A stretch of 64,000 bases of DNA, from the NCBI GenBank assembly GCA_030272155.1, contig CP126201.1, forward strand, positions 4,822,501 through 4,886,500, read 5' to 3'. The DNA is from Tetradesmus obliquus. Its lineage: Eukaryota > Chlorophyta > Chlorophyceae > Sphaeropleales > Scenedesmaceae. Shown here one piece after another: positions 9,974 to 49,715 of the stretch (positions are counted from its first letter, which is position 1; each line of letters starts with the position of its first letter). Below the pieces are notes generated by a model that made no database searches, had not been told where the DNA came from, and saw only the letters and a list, made by a program, of their open reading frames with translations. A program made the translations under genes and the position numbers.

Positions 9974-11516
9974 ATGAACGTGCTGCGCAGCCGTTTCGGG
10001 GTCGAAGGGAAGCAGCATGCACGTCCTGCAGTTGCTGAAATTCATAACTGCAGTATACGACACGTTACAAGTGCGATCACCGGAACTACCGGGACAGCTG
10101 CCGGGTGCGTGCAGCAGCAGCAGCACAGCGAGCAGCAGCAGCTGCTGCCAGCACAACCAACCCCGCCGCACATGAGAGCTCTGAGCTTGGCGTGTGCGTG
10201 TCTGGTGGCTATGGACAGTGGTTTGCCACTAGCAGCGCTGGCAGATGTGCCATTGCCACAGCAGCAGCAGCAGCAGCAGCAATCAGAGAAGCATGGCTTG
10301 CTGAGCAGGCTGCGACAGATGGTCAAGCCTGCAGGCGATGGTGAGTGCTCCAAGTGCTACACCTCCTGGACATTACTCGCTTGCCATAACTGAACTGTTC
10401 TGCTGAAATGGTGTACAGTTCGCATTGCCTGAGCGCAGCTGTCACTGCACAGCACGCCTGCTGTAAATCGGCGCAGGACATCAATGCAGCTGGCCGAACG
10501 CTGCATTTGCTCTTGCATTCAAGCATGGCTCCAAACATACCAGCTGTACAGCTGCCTGGGCCCGTATGCAAACCAATGTCTTTCGTCTTTCACAGCAGAC
10601 CATGATGCTGTGCCTCTCTTGCTTGTCGTGCCTGCCTGCCTGCTCGCTGCAGAGGCTCCTGCAGTGAGCAGCCCTCGTTCTTTTTGTGTTGCATCTTTGC
10701 AGTATGCCTGCTCAGCAGACCTATATGCTGTGCCTTTTGAGACTGTCATGCCGTACTGCCTGCCACTGCCTGCCTGCTTGCTGCAGAGGCCCCTGCAGTC
10801 AGCAGCCCGCTGCCTGCCGTGCCTCACGCCAGCAGCGACAAGGTTGCAGAGCTGCAGCAGCTGGTGCAGCAGGACGCGCCAGACACTGCAGCAGCAGCAG
10901 CCAGCCACAAGCAGCAGCAGCAGCAGAAAGGCAAGAAGCAGGACAAGAAGCAGCAGCAGCAGCAGCAGCATGATCCGCAGCAGGCGGCGCAGCAGTTGGC
11001 TGCAGTGCTTGGTGTGGATGGCAGGGCAGCGCAGCAGCTGCTGGAGCAGGAGCCGGGCCTGGCTGGGCTTGGACAAAAGCAGCTTAAGGTGAGCCTGATG
11101 CATGTGTTTATTGAGGGGTGCAAAGCTTGGCTGCCCCACTTGGAGGTGCCAAGCCTTGATTGTGTTGGACAAAAGCAGCTCAAGGTGAGCCTCATGTTCT
11201 GTTGTTGGTTGTGATGGCCGTTAGGGTTTGGCTGCCCCATCTGCAGGAGGCGGGCCTTGCCGGGGTAGGTCAGAAGCAGCTCAAGGTGAGCATAGATCAT
11301 TTGGCGTGGTGAGCTGGCGGTGCTGCGGCACCACCAGGTGAGGGTATGAAGGGGGCTGGACACGTTCCAGGTTATTGTCTCTCTGGCTGCTGCATCTTCA
11401 CAGTGTTGCTTGCTTGCATTGGGTTTGCCTGCATACATTCTGCAAGCAACAGCGGAGCATCAGCATCAGCAGTGCTGCTACTCAAGTTTGTTCTCATCAA
11501 CAGCAGGACCCACTAG

Positions 11517-11551
<35 letters not shown>

Positions 11552-12663
11552 CAGGAGCGCCTGTCCAGCCTCAGCAAGCTGCTGTCGCTCAGCCAGGACA
11601 GCGCAGCAGCAGTAGCTTACCGCATGCCTCGCCTGCTGACGCTGCAGCATCGGGAGCTGAGTCAGCGCCTGGCTGCAGCCGCCAAGCTGCTGGGGGTGGA
11701 GCAGCGGCTGCTGAAAGATGTGGCGGCGCTGCAGCCGGGGCTGCTGGTGCATCAGACTGACGTGCTGAGGTGAGTGTTCGGTTCAAGGTGGTGGGCTGTG
11801 CTGTGAGGTGTCGCGGTGGGCTGCGGTGGGCTCCGACTGCGGTTGGTCAGGATTAGTGTGGCAGCATGATGTGGCGGCGCTGCAGCCGGGGCTGCTGGTA
11901 CACCAGACTGACGTGCTGCGGTAAGTGTGGGGCATCAGATGGTGGGCTGTGGCGGTGGGCTGCGTTGGGCTCCAGCTGCAGCTGGTTTAGGATTTAGTGT
12001 GGCAGCATGTTGTGGCCGCGCTGCAGCTAGGGCTGCTGGTGCACCAGACTGATGTGCTGCGGTGAGGTGTTGGGTGGTGGGCTGTAGTGTGCTGTAGTTG
12101 ACTGTAGATTTGTTGCGGCTGGTGGGGGTGACCTGACATGCGGGTTGTTCTGACAGCATTGTCAAGTTGTGTGCTTTGCGATGCCTCACGCGTGTGGCTG
12201 CCTTTCTGCAGCAGAGTCGAGTCAACAAACCGGGCCCCTTCTGCTGCTGCTGCTGCTGCTGCAGGGTGCGCATCAAGTGCCTGGAGAAGCTGCTCATGCT
12301 GAGCCCGCCTGATGCGACACGCCTGGCTGCTGCAGAGCCGGCGCTGCTCACCTTCAGGTGTGGCTGCATATGCGGCTGTGTACATGTGTGTGTGCACCTT
12401 ATTTCGGGGTGCTGCTGTTGCACTAGCATTTCTGCAGGGTGGAACAAAATGGCAGCATGCTGCTTTGGGCAGGTCCTTATCACATCATGTACACAGTTGC
12501 TGCTGTGCGGTGGTTGCGTTCTTATTTTGTGCACGCATGCCCGCTTGTTAGCAGGTTTCACCTGTCCGCAGCTGCATAATTGCTTGTGCTGTACACCAAC
12601 AGTGTCAGTGGGGCGCCACTCCCATCGGCAAGTTCCATACTGTGCTGGCCTTACAACTGCTGC

Positions 12664-12709
<46 letters not shown>

Positions 12710-13663
12710 CATGAGGACCTGGCGGCGCGGCTGGGTGAGCTAGCCAAGCAGCTGGGCCTCAACACAAACAGGACGGCAGGCCTGGTCTGCAGGAGGCCAG
12801 GTGGGCGTTATATAACATAACATAACACACATGTCACAACACCCACAGTACATGGGACGTGTTTGGCAGCACTACTTGCCTGCCTGCTGCTGCTGCACGC
12901 CAGGACTACAAGGGTTGCACTACTGCCATATTTGGCCAATGCTGCTAACGCACCACAGCAGCGGCAGCACAAGCTAGAGTACCACCCATCAACCACCAAT
13001 CTCTCATCCCCTGCTGCCGCAACTTTACTGGTAAATCTATACCGCCTCATTGCTGCACACAGGCCTGCTGGTGGTGCCGCCAGCAGTTGTGAAGCAGCGC
13101 CTGGATGCTGCAGTGCAGCTGCTGCAGCTGCCTGTGGAGGCTGGCAAGTCATTTGCGCTCCGAGTGCCAGGGGTGCTGCTGCAGCCGCCAGGTGTCACCC
13201 GCAGCCACCTACTGAGCCTGTCAGCGCTGCTGAATATTCCGCTGGATAGGGCTACGGTGGCTGCTGCGGAGGTGCCGCAGCTGCTACTGGTGCCGCCTGC
13301 GGAGGTGCAGGCGCGGCTGGCCACACTGAGTGAGACGCTCAAGGTGCGCCAGCACGGCTTGTTGCATATGTTATCATGATATGTTCGAATTTTTGCTGGG
13401 CTAGCGTGTTCCGTGCTGGTGCAGGCACGGCTAGCCACACTGAGTGAGACACACAAGTCGAGGCGCTGTTATGTAACATGTTATAGTTAGGAGCCCTGCC
13501 GGGCTGACGTGTTGTTGAAATGATGCTATGTGCCGCTGTCTGCCGGCTAGACGTGCAAAGTGACGGCTGGAGGCGGGGCCTGGACACCAAGTGGAAGCAA
13601 GCTGAGCGGCTGCAGTGCTGGACACACATCAGCCTTTGTACATTTTCATCCTCTATAACCCCG

Positions 13664-13694
<31 letters not shown>

Positions 13695-13813
13695 TGCCTG
13701 TGGACAAGGTGCGGCTGATGGCTGCAGACAGGCCGGTGCTGCTTTCACACAACAGCGCCACCATCCGCAGTGCGGCACAGCAGGCAGCCACGAGCAAGGA
13801 GCAGCGGCGGTGA
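9974..13813 (+). CDS. mTERF-family organellar protein
   Basis: Seven exons fit in phase: 9974-10340, 10787-11088, 11555-11769, 12265-12357, 12709-12800, 13063-13343 and 13694-13813 (489 residues). The N-terminal 120 residues are Arg/Ser/Gln-rich and could be an organellar transit peptide. From about residue 200, roughly 30-residue Leu/Pro helical repeats typical of mTERF proteins follow: YRMPRLLTLQHRELSQRLA, KLLGVEQRLLKDVAALQPGLL, KSFALRVPGVLLQPPGVT and AAEVPQLLLVPPAEVQARL. Family members bind nucleic acid in mitochondria or chloroplasts and affect transcription, splicing or ribosome assembly; which process applies here cannot be seen. Four exon boundaries have partial tandem copies in the adjoining introns. 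Internal exons 12265-12357 and 12709-12800 are short but frame-consistent. Confidence 0.8.
10606..10810 (+). repeat. Acceptor-side echo of mTERF exon 2
   Basis: The stretch ending CTGCCTGC-TTGCTGCAG and continuing into the exon start (EAPAVSSP) occurs twice. The exon edge is at 10653 in the echo and 10787 in the true exon, 134 bases apart. The echo has a complete CTGCAG acceptor and the same phase for the first nine codons before diverging. It lies upstream of the true exon, inside the intron. Confidence 0.75.
11040..11291 (+). repeat. Donor-side echoes of mTERF exon 2 (three copies)
   Basis: The exon end encoding GQKQLK plus GTGAGC occurs three times, with donor GT at 11089 (true), 11185 and 11286. 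The last copy also has CTGCAG at 11241-11246. That gives a bounded 39-base segment (11247-11285) of 13 codons in phase 0/0 with no stop. Confidence 0.85.
11696..12068 (+). repeat. Donor-side echoes of mTERF exon 3 (three copies)
   Basis: A unit of about 145 bases carries the end of exon 3 (DVAALQPGLLVHQTDVLR), a donor and the start of the intron. It occurs three times, with donor GT at 11770 (true, GTGAGT), 11921 (GTAAGT) and 12062 (GTGAGG). The third copy carries an in-frame TAG. Intronic GGTGGGCTG-rich sequence is copied along with the coding part. Confidence 0.85.
13302..13460 (+). repeat. Degraded donor-side echo of mTERF exon 6
   Basis: The exon end VQARLATLSETLK (to 13343) recurs at about 13420-13455. 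In the echo the donor GT has changed to TC after CACAAG, so this copy cannot act as a 5' splice site. Confidence 0.7.
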
Positions 13814-14039
13814 CACAGCAGCAGCAGCAGCAGCAGCAGCAATTGGTCGTCAGCGTCTATGTCATCATATCATCACCGTAGTCATGTTATGAAGGAAGCA
13901 ACAGCAGCCCACCAGCTGGTAGAGGCCTGGGTTTTGCTGTGAGGGGTGTGGCTGGGGAGGTGTCATTGCACCAGTGCTGCACATATTTTGAGGCTGATGT
14001 GGCGTCTGCCACTGTTTTGGTTGAACAGCGCCGGTGTCG

Positions 14040-14044
14040 TGTAA
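14040..14044 (+). terminator. TGTAA polyadenylation signal of the mTERF gene
   Basis: TGTAA lies about 225 bases past the mTERF stop. A second copy 26 bases further on (14066-14070) is an equally good candidate. Confidence 0.45.
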
Positions 14045-14577
14045 CAATGTGTGAGGGCATTCATTTGTAAATCGTGACGTTGTGTTCCTCTGAAACCCTC
14101 GTATGCAACTTCTATCCGCATTTTTTCAACCACACGTTTCTGTCCGCCTGTTTACACGTGCTGTCAGTGCACCTGCACCTGCAAAGTATGCAAACATCAA
14201 ACCAGAAACACAAGCAAAGACATGCAGCAGGCCCTATGATACAGCACTCAATCTGGGAGCGGCTGCCATCATGCATTGATGCCAATTGCAAGCTGCACAC
14301 CAGCCATCTGCCAGAAGCTGGAACTGCAGCGGGTGTAGAACAGCGGATGCACGCGCTGCAGTTGGATGAAGGCATGAAGCCCCTACATGGACAAACACTT
14401 GTGTACATGTGCTTGCACGGCAGCGCTTTGCAGCGCTCACTGATCGCGCAGCCATTGCGTGTCAGACACACAGCCAAGCACCGTGCAGCATCCATGTGTG
14501 CATAAAGATAACACAGTGAGCGGCATGGTGCGCGTGCCAGAAGAGCTGCCAGAGCGCGCTTTGCAGGGGACGAACAC

Positions 14578-14661
14578 ATTCGGCGCTGTGCATTGCGCGT
14601 ACGCGCATGTGCAGGCCACATTCGGCGCTGTGCATTGCGCGTACGCGCATGTGCAGGCCAC
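14578..14661. repeat. Perfect 42-bp tandem duplication
   Basis: Two identical 42-base units (14578-14619 and 14620-14661) begin ATTCGGCGCTGTGC. Perfect identity implies a recent duplication. The sequence is open in several frames because 42 is a multiple of three, which inflates the ORFs here. Confidence 0.95.
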
Positions 14662-15299
14662 GAGAGACGCAGCGTGCACGCCGCATGGATGCGGCGCTGA
14701 CAGCCATGCAGTGCGCAGCATGTCAGCGCGCAGCAACAGCCCAGGGCTGGCTTCACGTCACAATCAAAACCAGCAGGCCAGCAGCACAGGCGTAGTCGTC
14801 GGCAGCTCCGCTGCATGTGCAGCAGCTTGCAGGTGCCTTGATGACCAGCGTGACAAGCAAATGAGGAATGAACAAATGTGGGAGGTGCTGTCACAGCACG
14901 GACTGTCCAGTGCTGCAGGTACCAGTGCTGTAGATACCATAACCATACTTGGCGGCAGCGACACACTGCCAGCAGCCTGGCAAACACAGCAACAACGCAT
15001 CAACACTTCCGCGTCAGCGTCAGTCACTGCTCAAGCGCGTACAGCACCACAGAAAATGTATGCAGAACTTTGGGTCAGAACAAACTGCAAAGACAATGCC
15101 GAAACACCACAGCAATGCAACTGCACTAAAAGGCAAACAGAACTCTCCCACTGAGCAATGGTTGTGGCGTGTCAACACCAACACTGCAGCGCACCAACAC
15201 TCCTTAAACAGCGAACAGAATTGCCTGCACGTCAAACTACATCGGGTGTGCCTCTGATGCCCACCAACACTGCCACGCTGTCCTGTCCTGCAAATGCAC

Positions 15300-15490
15300 T
15301 ACACGTACTGCCTGTACTGAGCAATGAGCTGCACATCTGTCCACTGTACTGCCCACTGTACTGCACATCCATAAAGTGTACTGCCTGATGTACGGCACGC
15401 ATGCACTGTACTGCCCACTGTACTGTCCTGTGTACTTCACACACATGCACTGTACTGCCCACTTCACTGTCCAATGTACTGCATGCTGTA
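15300..15490. repeat. Degenerate GTACTG-rich short repeats
   Basis: The motif CACTGTACTGCC and close variants recur many times within about 190 bases at irregular spacing. No coding or structural role is apparent. Confidence 0.7.
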
Positions 15491-17689
15491 CTGAGCATCA
15501 CTGCACTGTGCTGCCTGCTACGATGCCCTTTGTCCCACTGCACCTGACCCAACACTGCACATCCTGTACCTCATCCAACTCTGCACATTCCAACCCTCAC
15601 TGCACCCTGTGCCTGCACCAGACGCGAACACAACCTGAGCCCGCGTCAGCAGGCCAGACACGCCTCACACATACAGTACACTTCTTATAAAGCACAGCAC
15701 GTTTTCCTGCCTGCTTGCTACAGCCGTGTTGTGTCATACCCTTTACTTCCAGGCAGGCGGTACGTCAGTGCCAGCCTCCTGTGGCGGTAAGTCTGCCACG
15801 CAGCCCCTGAGGCTGCTCATATCCACCATCAACTTCCTGCAAGCTGGCAGTGCATGCCTGCTGACCTTCCAACCACGCAACTGCTGCACAACTACCTCAT
15901 GCAGTTGCCTGCATCCACACGCCTCAACACACCTCACCAACTCATTCCTAAGTGTTGCTGTCATCAGGTCAAAGGTGCCAAAGAAAGAAGGCAACATCAC
16001 ACAAGTGCACGTGCCATACTGATCACAGAGCATGTCACTCCTGCTCGCTGTTTGCCACGTAGCAGAAAGGCCAGAGAATCTAACTATACTCTGCAGCCCA
16101 GAGTAAGCCAGGGCTGCAGTGCACAGCCCCAGCAGCTAGCCTGTCCTGCTGTCAAGCAGAATGGCGTCTGTTGCACAAGAGAGCTAACAGCAGCCCACGC
16201 CACATGCAGCACATGGGCAGCCCATCAACAGAGTTGCTTGCGCATCTGCTGCAGCTGTGGCACGTAGGGAGGGGTACAGCATGCAAGTATCATGATAGTG
16301 CTGTCAGTGCAGCTGAAAACAGCTGCTGCATGCGTTTGAAAAAAAAAGTGTGTCATCACCTCGCGCAGCACAGGAGAGGCCTGTGCAGGAGCACCTACAT
16401 GCGCTGTGCTGAACTGCTATCTACTCTGGCATAACTCTACACAACCCCGCACTACATACGAAGGTCACCACGCAAGCACGCATGGCTTACATGCATGCAC
16501 GCGTCATTTCATCCAAGTCAAGGTTCAGATGCTGTCATATCACGATGTGGGCAGATTCAGCACGAATAAACTGCCACGCGGTGCTTGCAGCACCCGTTCC
16601 CTCACGCAGAAGCACAGCAGGTGTGTATAGCAGAGCTTGGCAGCAGCAACAAGCAGCAGGGGCCCATTGGACCACTCCAATAGTTGCGTGAAACAAGCAT
16701 GGTGAGATACCACCCTTACTGCTGAGGGGCGGCACAGCAGCAGACAACTGCCAACTACAGCAGCACACCACCGCACTCCGCAAGCGACGTACTGCAGCTG
16801 CTTGGAAAGCAGCAGGCTTTCCATCCAAGCCCAACGACGGTTCCATGCCTTGGCATGCAATGCGCAGCATGCATGCTGTGATACGCCCACAGCCCATCTC
16901 GGCAAGACTTTTTCACATCTCAGTTGCCTGCTGACCAACAGGAGCACGGCAACTGTACAACCCACACGCATAGATGGTTTTCATCTTAAACGGACGAGGC
17001 TGCAAATCCATAACTGCACGCCTCGCATTTCAAGGCCCGCGTGCAGCGCCATGTGTAGAAAGACAGCAACATACTGACAGTCCAATATGTAAAGGTAAAG
17101 CGACTGTTACGGTGCGCTTGCTGCACTGCGAGCCTCACAAAGTGAGATGCAGCCGCCCTGTACAGCAAGCACCAACGTATGCATCTAGCGATCACAATGT
17201 AACATCAGTGTCGGCTCGCCCCCGCGACACTGCTGCACAATAACAGCATGTGCAATGAGCTGGGCAGCGTGCCTTGTCACCAAAAGGCACCGTCACCCAG
17301 GCGATGATATATTTATCATAACATAACATAATAACATGGGTGGTCAACGCTCACACCACGAGCAGCAGTGCTCTGCAGCAAGTGCCACGCTACTGCAGCA
17401 GCCGTACTGCAGCAGGCACTAGCACATCACCAGCGGCGGATGGTGCACTGTTACTCAACGTGCATCACATCGCAACAATGCGTTTTGTGTACTTTAACAG
17501 CATCGTCACACAAGCTCCAGTTGCGCAGGCTAGAGCTGCTGTCTGCAAGCCAGCACTGCCTTTCCTGCAAGCTGCTGCTGCGTTCTGCAAGCCGTTGCCA
17601 CACATACAGAAACTTGCATCATGTCCCACTGGCAACAGCAGCAACAGCAGAAGCAACAGCTGCTCTCTTCACGCACACACCCTTTCTTC

Positions 17690-20053
17690 TTACACAACCA
17701 GCATCACTGCAAACACCAGGCCTGCAAGCACACTCGCTGCCACAAGCCTCACGCCTGCTGCTACTGCTGCTGCCCCACTGGTGGTCTTTGCAGGAACCTG
17801 GCCCTGCTCAGCACCCATCACCTGCTGACCTGGCATCGCCGCACCCCCCATACCCATCCCAATCATCATGCCTCCATTCATCCCCATGCCCATTGCACCC
17901 TGCTGCTGTTGCTGCTGCATGCCCATACCGTTGTAGGTGCCAGGCAGTGCCTCACCCTGCTGCTGCTGCTGCGGCTGCATGCCCAGGCCCATGCTGCTGC
18001 TGCTGCCGGTGTAGCCGCCTGCTGCATAAGCAGTGCCGGTGATGGTGGTGCTCATGAGGCTGTCCTGTCCCAGGCTGACAATGCCCATGGCTGAGCCAGC
18101 AGTGACCTGCAGGAAAAGGCAGGGCAAGACAACAGCAGTATGCTGTGGGTTCTGCTGTGTGTAGGCGTGATGAGTGACAGCACGACAGCAGGGGTTTCCC
18201 TGTACCAAGAGATTGGATGATGAGAGCCTGTGGGTAGCTGGGAGCTGCTTTATAACTGCTTCACAATCACAAGTGCTTGAATCTGCACTTGCAGTACTGG
18301 CAGGTGAGGTGAGGAAGGTCGACAGCCTCATTTGCCGCCTGCGCATGTGCACAGCATAATGTGCTGCACTGCTGCTTCTGCTGCATAACAACCGGCGCAG
18401 CTCACATTGTAGAGCAGGTTGCAGTCGATTTGTGTTTCACGGCCGCCAGCATCCGGCACCACGCGGCCCTTCAGGTTCATCATCAGCATGGTGGGCGCCT
18501 GCATGCTCTGGGGGTTGGTCACCTGCAGGAGGATTGTGTTATGTAACAAATATGACATAATTTGAAAATGGCAACAGCTGGAGGTCAAGTGATGGTGCTG
18601 CACCCAATGGCAAGAAGGAGCATGATGCTTGAGTCTTGTTCTGCATCCAAGGGATGGCTTCAGCCAGCCGCCTCTGTGCCTGGGGCACTGTATCACCAGC
18701 TGCTTGACCGCATAACGTTATGTGTATTGCTGGTGTGGCTGGCAGATTGCTGCACACCCACCTGGAAAGCGATGTCACTCCTGCCCATGCTGTACTGGCC
18801 ACTTGCCGCTCCTGCGGCAGCACATGCGGCATGCAGCACATACACACCATCAGCAGCTGATGCTTCTTGAGTGCTTTGCCCAGTGAGCCCGTAACATCAT
18901 TCAACCACCTGCGGCAGCAGCGGTGCAAAGAGAGCTTGCAAGGATGCAACGTCAGCTGGACACACATCATATGCACACCCCAACCTGCATCTCAACTCCA
19001 GCTGCACGCAGTACACATGCACCCCTTACAGGGCGACATCACAGGCCTGCTGAAAGTGATTCACAATCAACGATCAGCCTTAAATTACACCTGCTGTTGT
19101 ACAATCTACCATGCATAATCTACCACAGCTCACCTCTGCTGAGCACGCCCTTGCTGACCTCGCAGAATGTGCCATCGCTTGCAATCTTGAGGTTGGGCTG
19201 CAGCTGGATGCTGCACATCGGGGAGGTGGACATCTGCAGCTTGCCCAGGCACTCCACGATGGCAATATTATCACGGCAGGTGTCCAGGTTCAGCAGGCGC
19301 ATGATGCCAGTGCCTGCAGGATGGTGAAGACAGCAGAAACATGGTTGGCATGGTGTGAATGACAGGTGGTGAGGGTGAGCACAGAGGATGCAGAGCACAT
19401 GTGGTGCCGGTGCCTTGCAGGATGATGAAGATGGGCAGCAGCGGCAGCAGGAGCATGGTCAGGGGCAATAGGTAGGGTGCATGCCATGTGCAGGCTTATG
19501 ATTGAGCCAGGCGCAGCATGCCTGCTGGCATGCGTCTGCAGGACAGAAGGAGGAGTGGCACAAAAGATTCAAGTACGCAGCATAAAAACCTATGTGTAGT
19601 GAGGATGGCAGACGTGTCACACCTCAGATCACTACAGTGATCTTCACAGGTGGGATTACACTAGCGTGTACTGTTGCTTGCTGCTGCAGATCATGTGTTG
19701 CATAGCAGCTCTGATCATCTGCGCCGCTGCTGATGTATTCGTTTTGACCATTTCACAGCATCAAAGAGCAGTCACGCCGTGAAAAGGCATACAGTGGCGG
19801 ACAGCAGCTGCCGTGCAGGTACCTCTGCTGCCGGGTGTGCGCCAGCTGGGCATGTACCAGGTGACTCAGCATAACAAGCTGCCTTGGCCGCTAAATAACA
19901 TTGCTAAAATCCCTGAAACTATATGCGCCACTGTACGAGACCCCCAGGGCCTGCTGTGCTCTCAGCGGACTCGAACTTGCCTTGAGTGCACTGCGCCACG
20001 GCGAACGCTGGAAGCGCCATCAGGCACAACATCACAGCGATGCGCGCATTCAT
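17690..20053 (-). CDS. Secreted, probably GPI-anchored protein of unknown function
   Basis: The start at 20053 gives a clear signal peptide (MNARIAVMLCLMALPAFAVA, then QCTQGKF). Four downstream exons fit in phase: 19134-19313, 18762-18865, 18406-18522 and 17690-18106. The join between the first exon (ending near 19937-19942) and 19313 is unresolved; a small exon near 19817-19860 (reading CPAGAHPAAE) may lie between. The mature region has spaced Cys residues (DTCRDN, CSIQL, TFCEV, IDCNLLYN). The last exon is rich in Gly/Met/Gln (GMGMQQQQ, GMNGGMMIGMGMGG) and ends with a hydrophobic tail (LVAASVLAGLVFAVMLVV), as expected for a GPI signal or C-terminal anchor. Family not recognised; a cell-surface location is inferred. 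Confidence 0.65.
19299..19433 (-). repeat. Possible weak acceptor-side echo in the secreted-protein gene
   Basis: About 30 bases spanning the acceptor and first codons of the 19134-19313 exon recur at 19402-19433, upstream on the minus strand. The copy reads TTGCAGG / CCTTGCAGG with several mismatches. It is shorter and less certain than the other echoes in the window. Confidence 0.4.
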
Positions 20054-24586: not shown

Positions 24587-24624
<38 letters not shown>

Positions 24625-27600
24625 GTGCAACCCAGCTCCTGCAGCTGCTGCTCCGCCTCATCCACCGGTGAGGGGCTGCGGCTGCCTCGCTTCGTGAAGC
24701 CACTAAAGCTGTTCTTCCAGCTCACCCGCTTCTCGCGCTGCTTGCGCCGAGTCATGCTGCTGCTGCTGCCGGGCTCGCGGCCCTCCTCGCTACTCCTTCG
24801 CCTTGTGCCTTGCTCCTCTTCTGGCATTGGCAGCAGCGCACTACTGTCAACGCCAAACAGCTGGCCTACACTGTTGCTGTTGCTGTTGTTGTTGCCGGCG
24901 TCAGTGCTGTTGTCTACGTCCCTGCTGGCCAGGCGCCCCCGTGTGCGTTTGAGCTCTTCTATGTCGGAGCCGCTTGGGGCCATCAGCAACGCCATGTGGC
25001 TGTTGCCGGTCTGCATATACACAGCAGACAAGCAAGCACGTGAGACAATCCAGAGCGGAGCCTGACGACGCATGACGCGTAGCAACTGAGCAATGAGCAG
25101 CACCACGTGGCTAACACCTGAAGCAGCACAATGCTCATGCTCATTACACACAAGAGACATGGGCACACTGACCACCTGGAACAGGCGCAGCACGTCAAAC
25201 ATGGGTGTGTCTGCGGGGATGCGCAGCATCTATCAGCCGCAGACAAAGAAACACATGAATCCGCAGCGCACCTGGAACAGGCGCAGCACGTCAAACATGG
25301 GTGTGTCTGCTGGGATGCGCGGCATGTAGCGCACGTCCAGCTGCCCCACGCGCGGCGTGCCGGGGCTGCGCCAGAACTGCAGCAGCTCCTTCACCAGGAC
25401 GAGGCCGATGATGTCAGTCTGGTTGGACCCCCTGCGGTGCGATTCACAGCAGATGCCAGGGTTTTGTGACCAATTGGTCTCAGCAAGTCACATGCAGCAA
25501 GAACTGCAGCAGCTCCTGCACCAACACCAGCCCGATGATGTTAGTTTGGTTGGAGCCCCTACAGTGCCGCAGTTGCGTGGCGCAAAACACTAGTCAGCAT
25601 GTCCAATGAAAAAAGGTCCAATCTAGAAGGGTCCAATGCAGAAGGGCTGCTGCAGCTGTGCACTGCTGTGACGCTGTTGCACGATGCATAGCAAGCAAGC
25701 TAGCAGCAGCAGCAGCAGCAGCAGATGCGTATGGAGCCGTCATAAGTACGTGTCAGCTGCTGCCTGCTGCTGCAAAGAACACAGCGGCGCACCTGTACAC
25801 GGGCAGTCGGCTGTGCCCGCTCTGCAGCACACGCGTGACCAGCGCCTCATCAAGCTCAGCATCCTCGCTCAGCTTGAACACCTGCAATGCAGCGCAGAGG
25901 AGCATGCATTTGCAGCAGAACAGTCAGCCAACCGGGTCACCCAGTGCGTTGTCAAGCTCAGCTTCCTCACTCAGCTTGAAAACCTGCAATGCAGCGCAGA
26001 CAGTCAGCCAGCACGCCATCAGGGAAATAGGCAATCAGACACCCGCACCTCGTTCAGCTCAAACACCTGCAGTTGACGAACCACAAGCGGCAGCCAAACA
26101 GCTGATCATGCAATCATATCAGCAGCTACATCACACCAGTGCGTGCCCATTGCTTGCAGCGCACCTTGTCAAACGGTGTCATGCTCGACAGCGCCGTCTT
26201 GTTCGTCAGGTCCATCGCGCCATGTATAACTGCCACCTCCTGGTGTGTCAGCCCCCCACCCAGGCCTGCAGCGACACAGAGGCAGACAGGCAGGCGGGCA
26301 AGGATGCCGTCAGCTGCCTCGGCACCGAAGCTACCAGAGCACAGCATGCACAGCTGTGTCACCATGATAAGCACGTCCTGCATGGAGCAACGCATACGCA
26401 CTGACCCTGGGATACGAACCTTTGCTGCAGCTGCACCATGTCCTTGAACTCACTCTGCTCCCTCCTAATCCAGCTGCAAACAACACAAACCAGCTGCAAA
26501 CAACGCAAATAACAGGTAAAGTCCCTCCTGATGCGCACCTGCATTCTCCCCGTGCAGCTGCACCATAGCCTTCAGCTCGCGCCGCTTCATGGCCCAGCTA
26601 CACACAACCTCATGCCCCAGCCTGTGGCCCTGCTGCAGACGAGTCATAACGAGTTGCTATCAACCCTCCAGCGCACCTGAATTCTCCCCGTGCAGCTGCA
26701 CCATAGCCTTCAGCTCGTGCCGCTTCATGGCCCAGCTACACACAACCTCATGCCCCAGCCTGTGGCCCTGCTGCAGACGAGTCATAACGAGTTGCCATCA
26801 ACCCTCCAGCGCACCTGCATTCTCCCCGTGCAGTTGCACCATAGCTTTCAGCTCGCGCCGCTTCCTCATGGCCCAGCTACAGACAACATTTCAAACCAAA
26901 TTAATTCTCCGCCCCGCTGCCCACCTGCATTCTCCCCGTGCAGCTGCACCATAGCCTTCAGCTCGCGCCGCTTCATGGCCCAGCTACACACAACCTCATG
27001 CCCCAGCCTGTGGCCCTGCTGCAGACGAGTCATAACGAGTTGCTATCAACCCTCCAGCGCACCTGAATTCTCCCCGTGCAGCTGCACCATAGCCTTCAGC
27101 TCGTGCCGCTTCATGGCCCAGCTACACACAACCTCATGCCCCAGCCTGTGGCCCTGCTGCAGACGAGTCATAACGAGTTGCCATCAACCCTCCAGCGCAC
27201 CTGCATTCTCCCCGTGCAGTTGCACCATAGCTTTCAGCTCGCGCCGCTTCCTCATGGCCCAGCTACAGACAACATTTCAAACCAAATTAATTCTCCGCCC
27301 CGCTGCCCACCTGCATTCTCCCCGTGCAGCTGCACCATAGCCTTCAGCTCGCGCCGCTTCATGGTGATCTCCTCATGCCCTAACACGCAGTCCAGCAGCT
27401 TGCCCAGAGGCCAGGTGACAGGGCTGCACACAAACATGAGCGCGCGCACCATCGGCGCACAGGCTGCGCCAATCGCCACACCGTACCTGCACAAATGATG
27501 GAGAAAGACACGTGCCGTGGGCGGTCAGGATGCGTTGCTTGCATAGCATATGCATTTGGAGCGGCTGCTGCCAGTGAGCCCGTCGGTGCATGAGAGGAAG

Positions 27601-38666: not shown

Positions 38667-38699
<33 letters not shown>

Positions 38700-40000: not shown

Positions 40001-40035
<35 letters not shown>

Positions 40036-42569
40036 GACACAGCTGATAATTGTGGTGCTTATGACCTGTTGTTGTCGGAAAGATACACCCCTGCTGTTTA
40101 TGTGATCAGCAAAAACTTGAACTTCAAGTATAGACCCCAGCATGCAATAGTTTGCTGCAGCCACTCACCTGGGCTGTGTGTGCGGCATGCTACACTTGCT
40201 GTGTTGTGTCGCGCCTGCAGCTGGACGTGCTACCGGTGCTGCTGGGCTACGTGCAGGGCAGCTTACTTAGGTCATCCACCATGTTTCCACTTCACACTGC
40301 ATGTTGCATGTGCTGCCCTGCCATCTTCTTGCAGCTGGATGTGCCGCCGGTGCTGCTGGGCTACGTGCAGGGCAGCGGGCGACCGCCCAGCCTGGCGCTG
40401 TACCTCACGCTGCAGCCGCGCCTGGCCCCGCCCCAGGAGCCAGAGGAGGAACGAGTCTCAGGGGAGCAGGAGGATGTGGCCCGCCATGCGCGCAAGTGAG
40501 TGCTGACTTGAAACGTCCCTGCGCTTTGGTAGCCGTCGCATCACTGTTGCGGGTTGCACTGCAGTGATACCTGTATATGGCTGGATGGCTTCTTTGATCT
40601 AGTTCCAGGTGACAACAGCACAACACCACTGTTGAGCAGCACCTGCTTGCTAATCCACCATCCTCCTCCTGCTGCTGCTGCTGCTGCTGAGCCAGGTGGG
40701 TGTCGGGCATCAGCGGGCTGCCGCAGTGCAGGGGCCGCGCCGTCAAGGCGCTGGCTGTTGACCCGGAGGGAGTGAGCACGCTGCTGCCGCGATACCTGGC
40801 GCCGGCGCCGCTGCCACCTGCCCTGGCGGCACGAGCAGCACAGGTGTGTGGTGTTGCCTTGCAGGGAGAGCGCGTTTGAGCTTCTGGTGTTGTGCTTGAC
40901 CTAGGTGGTGTGGCAATGTGTATCAATGCACACGTCTTGATGCAGCGCAGATTTGTTCGTGCCCCTGATTGAGTGAGTGACGACTGCTGCCTGTGCTTGT
41001 TGCACTGCTGCTATGCATCACGGCGGCTGCAGCTGCAGCCAGACGACTCCACGCTGGAGCAGCGTGTGTCTACCTGTAAATGACACTATCAACGACTGTG
41101 GCTCCACTGCTTGCACTGTTGCTGTGCTCAACCTTTGTAGCTGCAGCTGGACGACTCCTCCCTAGAGCAGCTAATGCTGGCTGCTGCGCGCTGGGTGGCG
41201 CACGTGCCGTTCGTTGATGACGCGTCGTTCGGCAAGCAGCGCAGCAACGTGTGGGCCAGCAGTGCAGATTTCGTGGAGCTGGCTGGTGGCGACCATGAGG
41301 AGCATGCACACCTGCTGGCTGGCTTCTTCATGGAGCTGGGCCAGGAGGTGGGTTGGTGAGGGAAGAGGGGTGCAAATGAGAGTGAGTGAGAGAAGATAGA
41401 GCAAGAGCAACATGTGGGTCTGGGCACTATCCGTAAGAAGCTTAGAGGTGTGGGGGCTGTCTGGCTACTTCATGGAGCTGGGCCAGGAGGCGGGTTGAAA
41501 GTTGCTTGGGGAGGCAGGGCGGGCTGGGGGGATGTGGTAGGGTGGTGGCCTGGCGGCGACCATGAGGAGCATGCACACCTGCTGGCTGGCTTCTTCATGG
41601 AGCTGGGCCAGGAGGTGGGTGGGATGGCAAGGGCAGTTGAGATCGGATGAGAGATAAGGAGCGAGAGCAGCATGTGGGTCTGGGCACTATTTGTAAGCAG
41701 CTCAGAGGTGTGGTAGCTGGCTGGCTAGTTCATGGAGCTGGGCCAGGAGGTGGGTTTGTGCTGAGGGTGGAGGGGTAATGATCATTGCATGTGGTTACAT
41801 GGTTCCAGGCACCATCTAGCTGAAGCTGTGGCGGTGTGTTGGCCTGCTGATGCCCGTTGTGAGGAGCTGGCAGAAGCAGGCTACTTCATGGAGCTGGGCC
41901 ATGAGGTGGGTGGGGTGAGAGGGCGTGAATGTCAAAGTGTGGAAGAGAGTGAGGGAGAAGAGCAAGAGCAGCATGTGGGGCTGGGACACAGCTGTCTTCA
42001 AAGCTCAGAGGTAAGGTATCTGGCTGGCTTCTTCATGGAGCTGGGCCAGGAGGTGGGTTGAAAGTTGCTTGGGGAGGCAGGGCGGGCTGGGGGGATGTGG
42101 TAGGGTGGTGGCCTGGCGGCGACCATGACAAGCATGCACACCTGCTGGCTGGCTTCTTCATGGAGCGGGTCCAGGAGGTGGGTGGGATGGGTTGGTGAAG
42201 GCGGAGGCGGGTTTGGAGTGAGAGCGAGTGAGAGAAAGAGCGCGAGCCAAGTGTAGGGGTCTAGGCGCCATTTGTGCAAAGGTCAGAGGCCTGGGGCTTC
42301 TTTGGTGCTTTAGAGCTGGCAGTGGCAGTGTCAGCTTGCATACTTGGTGGATGTGGCTGGCTAGTTCATGAAGACGGGCCAGGAGGCGAATTGGTGGGGC
42401 TGCTGTGGCAGGCAGAAACGAAGGTGGCTGCTGCAGTGTGGTGGCCTTATATAAACCTGAAGCGTGGTGGCTGGGGCTGTGCGTGCTCTCTCCAGCAGGT
42501 GGACAGCCGCCTACATGAGAGGAGTGACTCTCACCTGCTCGCATATCGGCACGGAAGCATAATGTGTGC

Positions 42570-42616
<47 letters not shown>

Positions 42617-43412
42617 CGCTGCAGGCTTATGTTGTGCTGGGCACATCCACTACAGGAGCGCAGGCGGCTTTTGCGCTGACAACAGGCCGGCCCCTGGTTG
42701 CACCAGCAGCTGTTGCGTCCTCTTCTTTGCCAGCTGCACCTGCAGTGCCTGGTAACGCAGAGCCCAGCACAGCAGCAGCAGCAGATGCAACAGCAGGCAC
42801 TGCCAGCAGTCAACAGCAGCCACCACAGCAGCAGCAGCTGCGCGAGCGCCTGCAGCAAGCAGCAGCAGCGGCGCAGGCGCGGCAACGCGCGGAGCAGGCT
42901 GGCACGTCAGCCAACCCAGCAACAGCAGCGGCAGCAGCAGCATCTGCTGCGCAGCGGCCGTTTGATGTGGCAAAGCTGCGGCTGTGGAACCCACTGAGTG
43001 GGCACTGTGTGCCTGTTAGGGACCCTGCCTGTGAGCTCAGGGAGGTGAGCATACGGTGCAGCACTGCTGCTGTGCACTGTACAATGTTGACTGTTGTGCA
43101 ACTGGTCCTTGCAGTGCATAGAGCACCTATCCACCAACGGCTGACCTCCGACATCATCCGCTGCATAACAATCAACATGATGTCAACTTCGGGTGGACTG
43201 CAACGCGTATCAGGCCTGGGAAATTCAACTGTCCCTGCTGCTGCTGGGCCCTGCAGGTGGGCACGCTGTACAGCTGTGACAACGTGTGGGCCAACATCCA
43301 GCTCGGCGGCCACCCCTGGGACATCAGCTGGGCGCTGCCTGATGCCAGCTGCTGGCGGCCCTTCTTCGGGCCGGTGCTGCCTGCACGGGAGATGGCCTGC
43401 ATCCAGGTGCGT

Positions 43413-43451
<39 letters not shown>

Positions 43452-45392
43452 AAGGCTTTTGCTCAGCAGCTGGGCAAGCTTGTGAGTCGATTGCGGTAGC
43501 AGGAGCAAGTTGCTACTGCTCAGCAGCCCAGCCAGCTTGCTGAATCCAACATCTGCCTCTGCGTGGCATGCAGCGTGCCATGTGCGCTGCCGTGTGTTTA
43601 GTGTGCTGGTGATGAAAGCAAAGCAGCTGGTTGCTCTGACGCCTATCATATGGGGCGATGTAGGTGCAGCAGTGGTGACCGCCAGCGCCGCTGCTGCTGC
43701 TGCTGCTGCAGGTGCCTCCCTGCTACGCTGAGCTGGAGCCGCGTGTGTATGAGGAGCTGGAGGCACGCGTGGAGGAGACTGTACGCGACGCGCTGTACGG
43801 TGAGGGCCACTGCATGCTTCTCATTACAGCACTTGACAGCAGCAGTTGCTGCACTTGTGCATGCGTATGTGCATGCGTATGTGCCTGCTGTGTATTGGTG
43901 TCTACACAATGCTCGCTCGGCACGACAGCTGCTGCTTGCGCTGTGCTGTGCGCGCATCCACCTATCCCTCTTTCTGCTACCTTTTCATATCCAGCAGCTG
44001 ATGGCAGCTGAGTCATTCAATGCAGTAATGAATCCAGCACGCCCCCTGCATCTGCCCTCGGCATCCCCACCTCAATGTATCACATCTGCATCTGTGTCTT
44101 CTGTGCTGCAGAGGCTCGCAGCGTGGTGGTCACGCAGCCCAACAACAAGCTGTCCCGCATCCCCAATCTCAACAAATCACATTGCATCTGTCTCTTCTTG
44201 CCCTGCAGAGGCGCGCAGCATGGTGGTCACGCAGCCCAACAACAAGCTGTCCCGCATTTTCACCAAACACAATGCATCTGTCTCCCCTTGTGCTGCAGAG
44301 GCTCGCAGCGTGGTGGTCACGCAGCCCAACAACAAGCTGTCCCGCATCCCCAATCTCAACAAATCACATTGCATCTGTCTCTTCTTGCCCTGCAGAGGCG
44401 CGCAGCGTGGTGGTCACGCAGCCCAACAACAAGCTGTCCCGCATCCCAATTTTCACCAAACACAATGCATCTGTCTCCCCTTGTGCTGCAGAGGCTCGCA
44501 GCGTGGTGGTCACGCAGCCCAACAACAAGCTGTCGCGCATCCTCAAGGCGCTGCTGAAGGAGGTGCCAGGCCAGCTGGCAGCCATCAACGCAGCCAGCAT
44601 GGCAGCAAGCCTGGCCATGGCTGACGTAAGCCTGGCGACAATTGGGGGCCCGGCAGCGGCAGAGGCAGCTAAGGAGCGGCTGCAGCAGCGGCTGCAGCTG
44701 ATACAGGCGCTGCAGGTAGGGTAGGCAGGCGGTGTGCTGGCAGGCATGCCTTACTTGCTCTTTCTCAGGGCAGACTACTCAGCAACAGCTGTCGCACAAC
44801 GGCCTGCTTCATGATTCCTCAGCTGAAGTCCGTGCTCACATCAAATCAAGCATGGCATGCTCCTGTGTCGCCTGGTCCCTGCTGCTGCTGCTGTTCTGCG
44901 CCTGCAAAACAGCTATCGCACGACCGCGTGGCGCGTAATATGCTTAATCACGACACCTTGTGCCTGCTGCCGCTGCCCTGCACCTGCTGCGCAACATCTG
45001 TCGCACAACGACCGCGTGGCGCGTGAGATGCGCGGCTGCCTCATCAACGGCCACATCCTGTGCTCCCTGCTCACTGCCCACCGAGCATGAGCCGCTCACA
45101 CTGTGTCCCGTCTGCTGTTTTGCGCACCTCCCCCTGCTTTGCGCAACAGCTGTCGCACAACGACCGCGTGGCGCGTGAGATGCGCGGCTGCCTCATCAAC
45201 GGGCACATCCTGGCACTGCCTTTCAGCGACAGCTACGCAGAGGCAGTGTCAGAGGCAGTGCTCAACACGGGGCTGCACCGCACAGTAGACCCGCGCGTGA
45301 AGTTTGCCATGGCTGCATATGTGGAGCCGCTGGGATCTGCGTTTGTGTGCTGCCTGTGGATCTACATCGCCGCAATACGCGAGACCAGCTAG
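31375..45392 (+). CDS. CC2D2A: CC2D2A, ciliary transition-zone C2-domain protein
   Basis: I resolve 28 phase-consistent exons: 31375-31555, 31692-31777, 32021-32297, 32508-32590, 32767-32952, 33211-33381, 33563-33787, 33984-34190, 34452-34604, 34839-35278, 35485-36373, 36595-36743, 36926-37056, 37231-37477, 37671-37761, 38002-38106, 38330-38447, 38708-39024, 39246-39402, 39547-39665, 40335-40495, 40696-40843, 41147-41347, 42625-43044, 43257-43406, 43712-43799, 44492-44715 and 45150-45392 (1988 residues). Landmarks: N-terminal coiled coil; LNDRVVG-type N-terminal C2-like region ending LLKWPASMQLQIWE; a C2 domain at about 1208-1475 (CFVEVKL, WNEQLLFPV, INLFDEVV, LDVPPVLLGY); ELAGGDHEEHAHLL; LRLWNPLSGH; CDNVWANIQ; and the C-terminal VKFAMAAYVEPL ... 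LWIYIAAI. This order is diagnostic of CC2D2A, an MKS-complex gatekeeper at the base of cilia. It is somewhat longer than animal forms because of Ala/Gln linkers. Five exon edges are echoed in introns. Confidence 0.92.
40211..40376 (+). repeat. Acceptor-side echo of CC2D2A exon 21
   Basis: The exon start LDVPPVLLGYVQGS (edge 40335) has a copy 114 bases upstream (edge 40221) reading LDVLPVLLGYVQGS. The copy sits behind an intact CCTGCAG acceptor and diverges after 42 bases. Confidence 0.9.
41022..41170 (+). repeat. Acceptor-side echo of CC2D2A exon 23
   Basis: CTGCAG followed by a GACGACTCC-CTGGAGCAG-type exon start occurs at about 41030-41070. It recurs 108 bases later at the true exon (41147). 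The echo has Pro-to-Leu-level differences (CCAGACGACTCC versus CTGGACGACTCC). Confidence 0.8.
41279..42395 (+). repeat. Array of donor-side echoes of CC2D2A exon 23 (true exon plus seven copies)
   Basis: The exon end ELAGGDHEEHAHLLAGFFME LGQE plus GTGGGT (true edge 41347) is followed in the intron by full copies at about 41550-41620 and 42115-42190. Partial copies lie at about 41463-41495, 41716-41755, 41859-41912, 42020-42058 and 42352-42390. Intronic GAGAGTGAGTGAGAG and GTGGGTCTGGGCACTAT sequence is copied with them. A block of about 80 bases after the copies near 41495 and 42058 is essentially identical (offset 563), showing later block duplication. Confidence 0.92.
44095..44540 (+). repeat. 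Acceptor-side echoes of CC2D2A exon 27 (four copies plus true exon)
   Basis: The TGCAG acceptor and exon start EARSVVVTQPNNKLSRI occur at edges 44112, 44209, 44299, 44396 and 44492 (true), spaced 97, 90, 97 and 96 bases. Intron flanks alternate between two types (ATTGCATCTGTCTCTTCTTG and AATGCATCTGTCTCCCC), so a two-unit block was itself duplicated. The 96-base step from the fourth copy to the true exon keeps the frame without a stop. Confidence 0.95.
44784..45215 (+). repeat. Acceptor-side echoes of CC2D2A last exon (three copies plus true exon)
   Basis: The last exon start LSHNDRVAREMRGCLINGHI (edge 45150) is preceded by copies at 44790 (about 17 bases), 44913 (about 30 bases) and 44998 (about 65 bases). 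Match length rises toward the true exon. In the 44998 copy the acceptor CAACAG has become CAACAT, so this longest copy cannot splice. Confidence 0.9.
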
Positions 45393-45891
45393 CCTGCATG
45401 AATGCGTATGCCACTTGTGTGGGCAGCCACTGCATGCACTGCGCAGTGCAGCCGCGGCCCGGTCGGGTCTTACTGCTGTTGACAGTGCATGCAACGATAG
45501 TAGCAAGTCACTTGCCAGCCATAGTCAACCTCAAGTTTTGACACTGTGAGAGTTGGTTGACGTATATCCAGTGGCATAGAGCTATAGCCGGAAGACTGGA
45601 CTAAGGAGGTCGCGGCGTGAAAACCCGCCAGCCTGGCAGGTGACACTGCTCGTACATTGGCAAGCTGCACGCAAGTCCGTGGAGCATCAGCGTGCTCGAT
45701 ATAGCTTCGCTTACTATGATTTGCATAACAAATGATCTTGCAGCAGGGCGATCGCTTGTTGTGCAATGACTGGGTTCCTGTCAGTTCCGGTGGTAGGGTG
45801 CAATCGATCTTTGCAATATCTATAAGCCGTAGCCCCAAATGCAATCTGATAATTTTTCCAAGGTAAAACGTATGTTATTCAGTTCATAAAC
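45393..45891. promoter_or_regulatory. Intergenic region between CC2D2A and the subtilase-like gene
   Basis: About 500 bases between two genes on the same strand. It must hold the CC2D2A 3' UTR and the promoter of the next gene. No TGTAA signal or promoter motif was identified with confidence. Confidence 0.4.
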
Positions 45892-48318
45892 ATGGTACAT
45901 TTCGCAGTGCAGCCCGGAACGCTTTTCAATGTGCTGTCGGTGCTGGTCTGCGTGCTGATCGGCACGGCGTCCTTGCAAACCACGGAAGGAGCAGCTGATT
46001 CAATTATCTACCCTCGTAAGTGTTGAGCTGCGACGATGTCGCTGTTGTCACAAAGTTCATGGTCAGTATAAACTTTGGTCCTATGTTGATCGCAGCGGGT
46101 GCAGGCCCTGTACGCCTGTACACATGAAGAAACGCATTATTAACTGCAATTAGCTTGATTTAAGCGCCGATCGTGCCGACTGTGCCAGTGGTCCGCGTGG
46201 GCAGCAGCTCTGCTGTTGCTGAGCTACTGCATCTCTACTGCACTGCATGATGCGCCAGTGATGCGTGCTATTGCTTACTAGGTAGATGTGCTCCATATGT
46301 GAAGGCATGCCGCTGCTGTACTAGGCTGCAGTGCCACAGCAGCATGCACACCACACGGCAGTGACACTGTGTCTGCTGCAACAAGCCCAAAACAGCACCA
46401 GCGCAAAACAGCCCAAGCCAGCACATGCCCAGCATCGCCAGCAACAGCACATGATTTTGCTGCTGATGCTGCATTGAGCTTGGTGCATTGTTGATTCCCC
46501 TCTTACCCTTTGCGCTCCTTCCAACGTGTCAACACGCTTCCCTGCACTTGCCCTGCTGTTGTTTGCCTGCAGCAGCGCACGCCGCTGCGAGGCTTCTTGC
46601 TGCAGGCCCTGCACAGCAGACACCCGAGCTGCCTGATGAGTGCAGCTCTGGCAGCTGCGCCATTGACGGCGGATGGGGCAACAACAGAGTGGTTACCAGT
46701 AAGTGCCATGCGCTGGGCAGCTGCAACATTGCTGCAGCTTTGATGTCATCCCGTCACAGCGGCAGGCAGTGCAAGTCTGCTGCATGCGCTCTTCATGCAC
46801 AGCAGCAGCAGTGGCGGCAACAGTTTTGGGCGACCTGAAGCCCCACCGAAACTGCTACCAGTGCTTGCGGAGTGACATGCAGCCCGTCTACCAAGATCAT
46901 TCACATGTCAAACATGCAGCTCCCCTCAAGCCTGTCCCTGTGTAGTGCCTGTTTTGCAAAAATAGACAGACCAGCATGGAAAATGCAAAGCTGCGCACCT
47001 TCAAGTTGCCACTTTGTGCTGCCTTGCCTGCAGTCTTGCTTGCAGGGCTGCACACATGATAGAGCAGGGCGTCACATGCGGCTGTTCACCCTTCAAAAAT
47101 GTTTTTGTTTTACCTTGTGCTGCCCTGCCTGCAGGCTTGTGGAGAGCATTGGCAGCCAAGGGCATGATGCCGCTCAGCAGGGCCAACTTCACAAAGAAAG
47201 GCGCCATCATTGGAAGCGTGAGTGGCACTGTGAACTTGTGAATATGCAAGCTAGGCAACACGCAGCTAGTGTCTGCTGCTCAAAATGCGCAGGAGTGGTG
47301 TGTTTAGACAGCAGAACCTGACATCCTTGGTGCAGTGCCTCCTCAAGTTGCTGTGAAAAGGGGGCGGAGACCCTGAAACACAAAACCGAGTGGATCTGCT
47401 GAGCTAGCAATCTGAGTGTCAACCTGCAACACCAGCTAGCTGGCAGCCGATACAGCCAGCGTCGTCAACCCTTCTTACAGCACCTCTTGCAGATGCGCGA
47501 CTCGCTTCTTAGCTGTCGGATATTGTACAACATCGTGTTGCTGCAGGGCGTCGACATGGAGCACAACAATGTGAAGGGTCAGGTGGATGTGGCCAACTCC
47601 GCAACTTTCTCAGAAGCCAGCGACAACCAACCACCTGGCGGAGTTGCGAGCTTTAGCATGGGCACGGTCATATTTGTGAGCAACGCACACACTGGCAGCA
47701 GACGCTCAGCGATATGCGATGCTTGCTGCTGCGCAGTACAGCCCACCAATTGCTGTTTGCGCCTGCAGCAGACAGAGCACCCTCACAACTGTGCCCATGC
47801 TGCATGCGACAGAGCCCAGGCATGCATGCCACAGACCTTGCCGGCTGTCAGCAACAGCATGCAGCACTGCCAGCAGTATCTGATTCTTCTGACAGTTATA
47901 ACAACAAAAATAACATGGCATGCATGCCCGCTTGCTGCTGCCGCCCTGCAGGGCATCATGGCTGCCAACTGGAGCCCATATGACGGCCAGGCAGATGCAA
48001 CAGGCATTGCTGGAGTGGTGGGGCCAGCATACGGCAACATTGTGAGGTGAGCAGCCTGCACTGAGTGCTGTATGACTCTGCACTAGTTGAAGATGAAGAA
48101 TGGTTTGGTGCGGTGTGGTTGTGATTTTTCTACGTGCCACCCCAACCAGTGCTATGCGCTTGGCAGCCGCTGGCTGCTGCTGCCGGCTGCTGTCGCAGTA
48201 CCTGGCTGCTGCTGCCGACAGCTGATGCAATATCTGGCTGCTGCTGCCGGCTGCGGTGTGGGAATTTTGTTGACAGCATTGCAAAACATCAACCTGTGAC
48301 ACCCACCCCAGGGCCATC

Positions 48319-48352
<34 letters not shown>

Positions 48353-49715
48353 GACACCCAAACCTGGCGACGTTGCGGGGGACAGCATCAACTACAATGG
48401 AAGATCAACATCAACACAGGAGGACATCGCCAACAGCTTTGCACATGCTCTGAAAGTCAACGCCCACCATGTCATCAACATGGAGTGAGTGAAGCACGCT
48501 TGTTTGTTATAACACTGTCAAAACAGAAAGTAACAACATTCGAATGCTGGAACGTACACTGCGGGCTGTGGCAGCTGCAAGATCAGTGCATCACATATGC
48601 TAGGCATAGCTGTGTGCACTGCAGTGCGCACATGATTTGCATGGTGATTAATCGGCTGGCAAGCTGAAGGGTGATTTGCACACATTGCTCACTGACTTGC
48701 TGGCAAAGGTCCTAATGTCAAAACATGGTTTGTTTGCTGTGATTGCAGGCAGGGGTATCCCATAACAAAGACAGCAGAGTTTGATGCCCGGTGGATGGAA
48801 ATTTTCGAGCCCATCTGCGCAGCAGGCGGAATCATTATAGCTCCTGCCAGCAATGATGGCACAGAATACATCGAAGCTACCAACGACACCAGGGGCGGTG
48901 ACATTGCTGATGCCTACGGTAGGGTTCAGGGTCTGGAGGTTTAGGGTTTGGACGGTTAGGTTAGGTTTTTAGGGTTTGCCTAAAAAGGGGCGGTGACATT
49001 GCTGATGCCTGCGGTATGGGCTGTGGCTGTTGGATGTTGTGGGTTGCGCATCAGGATTATGAGTACCTCTTACAAGGCGGTTACACACATAAACCAGCAG
49101 CACTATGCCTGCAACGCCACATGCCGCAGGTGATGGCACAGCAGCTGTGTACCCAGCTTCGATTGCAATGAAGCTGCCGGACTGCATGCTGGCAGTTGCG
49201 GCCACCATCCAGCCGGATCCTGCAAGCCAAAACCCCCTCAACCCCAATGGCCAGGACCAGCTGATGCGCGTGTCGAGCTATGGCCAGGGCGTCAGGATTG
49301 CAGCACCGGTGCGCGCCACACGCAGCACCTACAATTTCTTGCTATGCCGGTAGAATGCAATAAACGACCGTGCCATTCAAGTATCCTGCTTGCATGCTTC
49401 CAGGTGCATCGTCTCTGTCGAGACATATCGGGCTGCCGTAAGCTTGCAGCAGCGACGGCTGAAAGCGGCTGCAGTGGTTGTTCATGAGTCATGTGGAGCT
49501 GCTGCTGTGCATGTGCACTCAGCTGCAACGGCTGCTGTACTTTTAATCAACAGACGGGTGTTATAACAGCGGCTCCAGCTGTTGCATTGCAAGCGAGGCT
49601 TCAAAACACAACATCGTTGGAGGTGGCTGCAGCGGTTTCACCAACTGTCCAACAGCACATGCAGGATGCAGTGATTCCACACTGCCAAGGCATCCACGTG
49701 AACGCTGCCCTGGAC

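Follow-up and report, generated by a model that had tools for sequence, protein, structure and literature searches.

Short copies of coding-exon ends recur in neighbouring introns and beyond stop codons in genes of Tetradesmus obliquus

Internal gene duplication and tandem exon duplication leave coding pieces repeated side by side within a gene. How introns lengthen, and how splice sites and exons are born, is known so far mostly from single cases. In the potato RdRp case, as given in an excerpt of its report, a tandem duplication runs across an intron-exon border (PMC4974935). The genome of the green alga Tetradesmus obliquus, listed with 7.8 introns per gene, 57% GC and 108 Mb (table excerpted from PMC5966456), was sampled here from an assembly of 17 contigs and 104.66 Mb in total, with a GC of 57.4% in the sampled DNA. 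We show that short copies of coding-exon ends in the neighbouring introns, which we call echoes, are real, and that they extend beyond the window, the whole stretch of 64,000 nucleotides in which they had been noticed.

The sample consisted of the window and five 50-kb blocks (contigs 1, 2, 3, 4 and 9), the blocks representing 250 kb of the 105 Mb outside the window. Exon models came from a self-training gene finder written for the analysis, trained on the window and the five blocks with repeat information unused; it returned 476 introns in 49 genes, and the later tests were confined to genes with a minimum of 600 coding bases (463 introns in 45 genes, 314 kb). Loci with a reach above 80 or above 100, exons shorter than 60-80 nt and models with fewer than 600 coding bases were left out. 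Which copy is the true edge and which the echo, that is, which copy is spliced, was assigned from the gene models of this one genome. For the five models submitted, Pfam supports a Clp protease, a fructosamine kinase, ArgJ and a CNNM protein with CBS, and the mTERF match lies under the cut-off (19.4 vs 23.1 bits). The mTERF-like and CNNM models were thus run against Pfam; the names CC2D2A and subtilase are those of a first-pass annotation of the window, given from sequence alone. Tracts of TGC/CTG triplets commonly stand before 3' splice sites (window 11519-11549, 12657-12705 and 13664-13690, and the sample overall), and in the trained consensus the acceptor is a run with TGC periodicity that ends in TGCAG and has a G after it.

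The first-pass annotation had claimed that exon edges are recurrently copied into introns with a consistent polarity, donor-side copies lying downstream of the true exon end and acceptor-side copies upstream of the true exon start, and had proposed to compare introns with their flanking exon edges against random pairings. We ran such a comparison on the 314 kb, setting each exon-edge probe against its own intron and against 200 random intron stretches (threshold z>4). A match to the exon's own downstream intron was found for 40/319 tails, and to its own upstream intron for 32/331 heads, against 4/1,465 for six control comparisons pooled, which rules out chance or base composition as the cause. 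The excess is side-specific, and the polarity is borne out: tails match the upstream intron in 2/256 cases and heads the downstream intron in 0/250. Probes from the middle of exons match the neighbouring intron in 0/149 and 0/160 cases (0/309 together), and reverse-complement controls gave 2/319 for tails and 0/331 for heads. Outside the window, at the stricter z>5, 30/250 tails and 27/259 heads still match; each of the five blocks from other contigs contains echoes, as do 20 of the 33 genes with at least five introns.

Self-comparison of the window gave local direct repeats at the sites of the first-pass annotation, many of them at offsets of ~95-150 (Table 1). Within the CNNM gene, a 386-nt unit fills window positions 26532-27364 in 2.2 copies that match at 99%; the unit contains smaller 138-nt units, and the repeat is a very recent expansion. 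Two repeats of other kinds were also seen in the window, an intergenic array of degenerate CACTGTACTGCC-like repeats (15269-15588) and an almost pure TTA triplet run of ~30 units (50897-50985), the latter in a GC-rich genome.

Table 1. Echoes and echo-bearing edges in the window (positions of the window; gene names CC2D2A and subtilase-like as in the first-pass annotation)
Feature	Position	Strand	Remarks
Copy of coding tail with stop codon, downstream of modelled gene end 2223	2282..2386	+	104-nt match, 75% identity, offset 128
Acceptor-side echo of mTERF-like exon starting 10787	10632..10674	+	spacing 134, exon-part identity 0.91
Echo of mTERF-like exon tail ending 11088	11146..11184	+	from sequence; modelled as exon by the gene finder
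Second echo of mTERF-like exon tail ending 11088	11247..11285	+	from sequence; modelled as exon by the gene finder
Donor-side echo of exon ending 11769	11861..11951	+	spacing 151, exon-part identity 0.90
Second donor-side echo of exon ending 11769	12002..12091	+	spacing 292, exon-part identity 0.83
Donor-side echo of exon ending 13343	13418..13457	+	spacing 114, identity 0.90
Donor-side echo, CNNM gene, edge 25271	25146..25229	-	spacing 96, identity 0.96
Acceptor-side echo, CNNM gene, edge 25431	25497..25567	-	spacing 127, identity 0.85
CNNM echo-unit array including two near-identical 386-nt blocks	26426..27369	-	several copies modelled as exons
Acceptor-side echo, edge 41146, CC2D2A	41000..41063	+	identity 0.80
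Donor-side echo, edge 41355	41456..41497	+	spacing 142, identity 0.93
Array of 97-nt units with acceptor-side exon edges	44061..44546	+	five units; period 97, 5.1 copies
Acceptor-side echo of exon starting 45150	44977..45060	+	spacing 152, identity 0.98
Donor-side echo, edge 48918, subtilase-like	48986..49045	+	identity 0.96
Edges with donor-side echoes, mTERF-like gene	11769, 13343		also an array after the exon ending 11088
Edges with donor-side echoes, CNNM gene	25271, 26538, 26928, 27314	-
Other edges with donor-side echoes	41355, 44289, 48918
Edges with acceptor-side echoes	10786, 25431(-), 26770(-), 27156(-), 41146, 41517, 44208, 44395, 45149

Counted strictly, 82 edges have between them 57 donor and 46 acceptor echoes, a count that may pool some genuine copies within arrays (65 and 55 with some double entries). 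The copies include the splice site. On the donor side, with exons of at least 100 nt, they extend over 14-77 coding bases; acceptor-side copies mostly reach 22-66 coding bases, with six longer ones of up to 150, some within arrays. The median spacing of the nearest echo is 120.5 nt at 44 donor edges and 123 nt at 38 acceptor edges, 39/44 and 35/38 of these spacings lie inside 80-165 nt, and arrays continue at multiples. Identity is ~0.85 beside the edge and reaches background by ~65 nt into the exon. That intron sequence is copied too, as had been claimed, holds in part: the two intron flanks are recognisably related at 28/67 loci (5% expected), and one whole unit has been copied, 84 nt over 83 nt, but once the splice site is passed into the intron, mean identity drops from ~0.8 to 0.55 over the next 5-10 nt, and in many loci homology stops 6-9 nt beyond the donor. 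Where exon identity is at least 0.93, flanks are related (z>3) at only 5/26 loci; some spacers are unrelated next to 95-100% identical coding copies, and some copies are identical across 49-59 coding bases with unrelated flanks. The spacer as a shared element found no support within the 314 kb, and copying of the spacer from another place near the gene was also rejected: matches at z>3 were found upstream for 6/71 and downstream for 10/71, and on inspection they stem mostly from CTG tracts and from arrays whose modelled exon is itself a copy.

Echo-bearing introns are longer than the others, as proposed (median 404.5 nt, n=74, vs 236 nt, n=389), and the intron DNA between true edges and farthest echoes amounts to 14,396 of 142,031 bases, or ~10% of the sampled intron DNA. 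The first-pass annotation further proposed that the copies seed new splice sites and exons. As to splice sites, GT is intact in 43/50 donor echoes and AG in 34/36 acceptor echoes, but the echo acceptor scores lower than the true one in 31/39 cases. The seeding of exons is not borne out, since 24 of the 32 exon-part indels in the 79 nearest echoes break the frame. At the border between spacer and echo no splice signal rises above control (65 donor-side and 48 acceptor-side echoes), including the acceptor sought there for intron gain by duplication, and donor spacing is divisible by 3 in 12/44 cases only. On these three grounds (no border signal, broken frames and spacing) cassette exons or in-frame extensions were rejected.

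Anchoring on splice junctions as such, also claimed at first, did not hold up. Copies of coding tails also lie beyond modelled stops, in 8/37 genes (z>4), and the common anchor is therefore the coding edge and not the splice junction. Among eight gene ends that show such copies, B4 minus 4868 and B5 minus 13930 end donor-like and may be mis-modelled, and the last exon of B3 26823 (31 nt) is doubtful. Two cases are clear: at the end of the Clp-like gene, 111 coding nt and the TAG are copied, with all coding differences at third positions (by eye); at the B4 18974 gene end a 55-nt match, with 52 identical, reaches 5 nt past the TAG. Copies of start codons were found in 2/31 cases, and no conclusion rests on them. 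The Clp-like gene region also contains 159 nt (L011:1691-1849) that are 74% identical to their own reverse complement.

Repeat loci at offsets of 40-300 (n=123) are concentrated at coding edges, with 96 edge, 10 intron-only, 5 intergenic, 5 exonic and 7 mixed loci, where random placement expects 48.8, 24.3, 20.2, 15.3 and 14.4, respectively. The edge excess over intron plus intergenic loci is 5.8-fold overall, 9.0-fold at offsets of 80-170 and 6.7-fold at identities of at least 90% (36 edge, 4 intron, 1 intergenic, 3 mixed). The purging of harmful copies by selection cannot lift edges above intron interiors, and a mutational or survival bias must therefore be at work; part of the excess could come from pairs anchored on an exon staying visible for longer.

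Differences between exon and echo number 155/132/329 at codon positions 1/2/3 (149/132/310 in another count). The 4-fold/0-fold difference ratio is 2.86 (95% 2.19-3.87), the neutral limit being ~2, and the synonymous excess is also seen outside CpG (0.157 vs 0.058); in echoes without a frameshift the ratio is 3.27 (2.45-4.59; n=53), vs 2.11 (1.14-3.53; n=13). Stop codons occur in 3/940 echo codons, not clearly under the neutral 6.0. Indels per substitution are 0.084 in the exon part and 0.116 in the intron part, a near-neutral ratio, and across 398 0-fold sites in 16 arrays two echoes together have 42 private changes and the exon has 9. We read the evolution of echoes as mostly neutral decay with renewal from the exon, beyond which a residual synonymous excess remains; pre-diverged source copies would also give such an excess.

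Arrays have the form edge-(spacer-edge)n-flank, and in several, most clearly B1 19381 and B5 minus 38724, the inner spacers are alike and the outer flank is unlike them. In the B1 array of the Clp-like gene, four spacers are 98-100% alike, indicating whole-unit copies, and two synonymous variants are common to the exon and the echo closest to it but missing from the three farther copies. The nearest echo is more similar to the exon than the farthest in 13/16 arrays, which weakly supports the earlier remark that copies become cleaner as the true exon is approached. Exchange between copies was looked for with a site-pair test of little power; 0/7 testable pairs were incompatible (9 arrays), and exchange thus draws no support from the test.

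We tentatively favour, at somewhat below an even chance, a model of ~120-nt tandem duplications across coding borders with near-neutral decay and some renewal. Such duplications would arise across coding/non-coding borders and would be kept only where the extra coding piece lands in an intron or past a stop, which would give the polarity. The echo would afterwards decay almost as neutral sequence does; further copies may be generated by slippage or unequal exchange that starts on the coding part, and the same events may sometimes renew the echo from the true exon, itself held constant by selection, so that arrays would come to read as they do. Polarity needs no special machinery, because the protein escapes unharmed only when the copy lies where it is spliced out or left untranslated: judging from gene structure, a donor duplication should be harmless only if the upstream copy is used and an acceptor duplication only if the downstream copy is used, which would place echoes on the intron side. 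In favour of the model are the ~120-nt period, the whole-unit copies, the related flanks at 28/67 loci, the polarity, the 0/309 exon middles, the frame-breaking indels and the more numerous private changes of echoes; the shared variants in B1, beside spacers 98-100% alike, and the closer nearest echo in 13/16 arrays weakly support renewal. Against it, a single neutral duplication misfits most loci (related flanks at 5/26 where exon identity is at least 0.93), the synonymous excess of 2.86 lies above the neutral limit, also outside CpG, and the model predicts neither the 6-9-fold edge excess nor why duplications, in their founding or their survival, favour coding edges. It is possible, though rather doubtful, that duplication in this lineage is itself biased to coding borders and, with a ~120-nt ruler, copies the exon edge of the moment again and again into the non-coding DNA beside it, in which case introns would be a rolling archive of nearby exon edges with ready-made splice sites.

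Unrelated spacers and outer flanks beside 95-100% identical coding copies, the abrupt fall in similarity where splice sites and stops are passed, and a synonymous excess that is strongest in echoes without a frameshift would all be expected if the founding duplication had joined two already diverged copies of a locus, from a hybrid or highly heterozygous ancestor, in which coding DNA was alike and non-coding DNA was not, so that only coding edges are visible. We consider this unlikely: 49-59 identical coding bases with unrelated flanks are hard to square with old divergence, the 120-nt spacing is left unaccounted for, and a DNA-level search of the genome with one gene, the Clp-like gene, found no second copy. 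The CNNM gene has weak exon matches elsewhere in the genome. Somewhat less likely again is a copying process that inserts the coding edge itself (~20-85 nt) without a spacer, ~75 nt away, the spacer and outer flank then being adjacent old intron. It fits the unrelated flanks of most loci and the end of homology 6-9 nt past many donors, but flanks are related far more often than the 5% expected, and the narrow spacing is given no reason. Uniform duplication, with edges appearing enriched only because pairs that include a conserved exon can be recognised over a longer time, has slim prospects: selection on the exon side may slow divergence of the pair ~1.5-2-fold, yet the excess is still 6.7-fold at identities of at least 90%. 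That echoes are functional, for instance as decoy or regulated splice sites kept by selection, is very unlikely; intact GT/AG in most, the tight spacing and the third-position bias of differences agree with it, and against it stand the copies at stop codons, frame-breaking indels at a near-neutral ratio, the weaker acceptors and donor spacings that are seldom multiples of 3. An assembly artefact (alternating haplotypes or collapsed repeats) is the least credible, since, apart from one array that holds two variant classes, diverged multi-copy arrays with a regular period are found in all five blocks on other contigs.

Echoes also bear on annotation, and automatic gene models will hold false repeated exons. 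Our gene finder modelled some echoes as exons, and 28 modelled exon pairs look like copies; these were picked for being in frame, and a few of the copies resemble whole exons. Our own models contain an ArgJ segment three times and, in a gene that we take to be Rad54-like, a segment five times. The ArgJ-like model (L029:6004-6708, minus strand), with three in-frame copies of a ~24-residue segment, illustrates how echoes enter models.

How do these copies compare with known systems? In the open-access literature, as far as its accessible parts go, we found single border duplications and introners but no description of a genome-wide coding-edge pattern; this absence is weak evidence. In contrast to tandem exon duplication, echoes mostly comprise part of an exon edge and have one splice site only; a few look like whole exons, and the copies do not each have both splice sites and an intact frame, the exception being the 28 modelled pairs. 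Like minisatellites, they form head-to-tail units of varying copy number; unlike units placed regardless of genes, they concentrate at coding edges (96/123 loci vs 48.8 expected), and their outermost flank is usually unlike the inner spacers. With introners, as portrayed in an excerpt of PMC9860276, they share the many affected introns of one genome, but homologous intron sequence at many unrelated loci was not found within the 314 kb, where spacers match only near themselves and different echo loci have in common only CTG-type tracts and one weak 35-nt match. The potato RdRp case resembles them in its tandem duplication over an intron-exon border with splice signals copied (excerpt of PMC4974935), whereas here the copies lie within existing introns or past stops, in most multi-intron genes sampled. 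A single genome thus offers, in 20/33 such genes, stages from near-identical arrays to faded copies, which makes the process directly testable by strain comparison.
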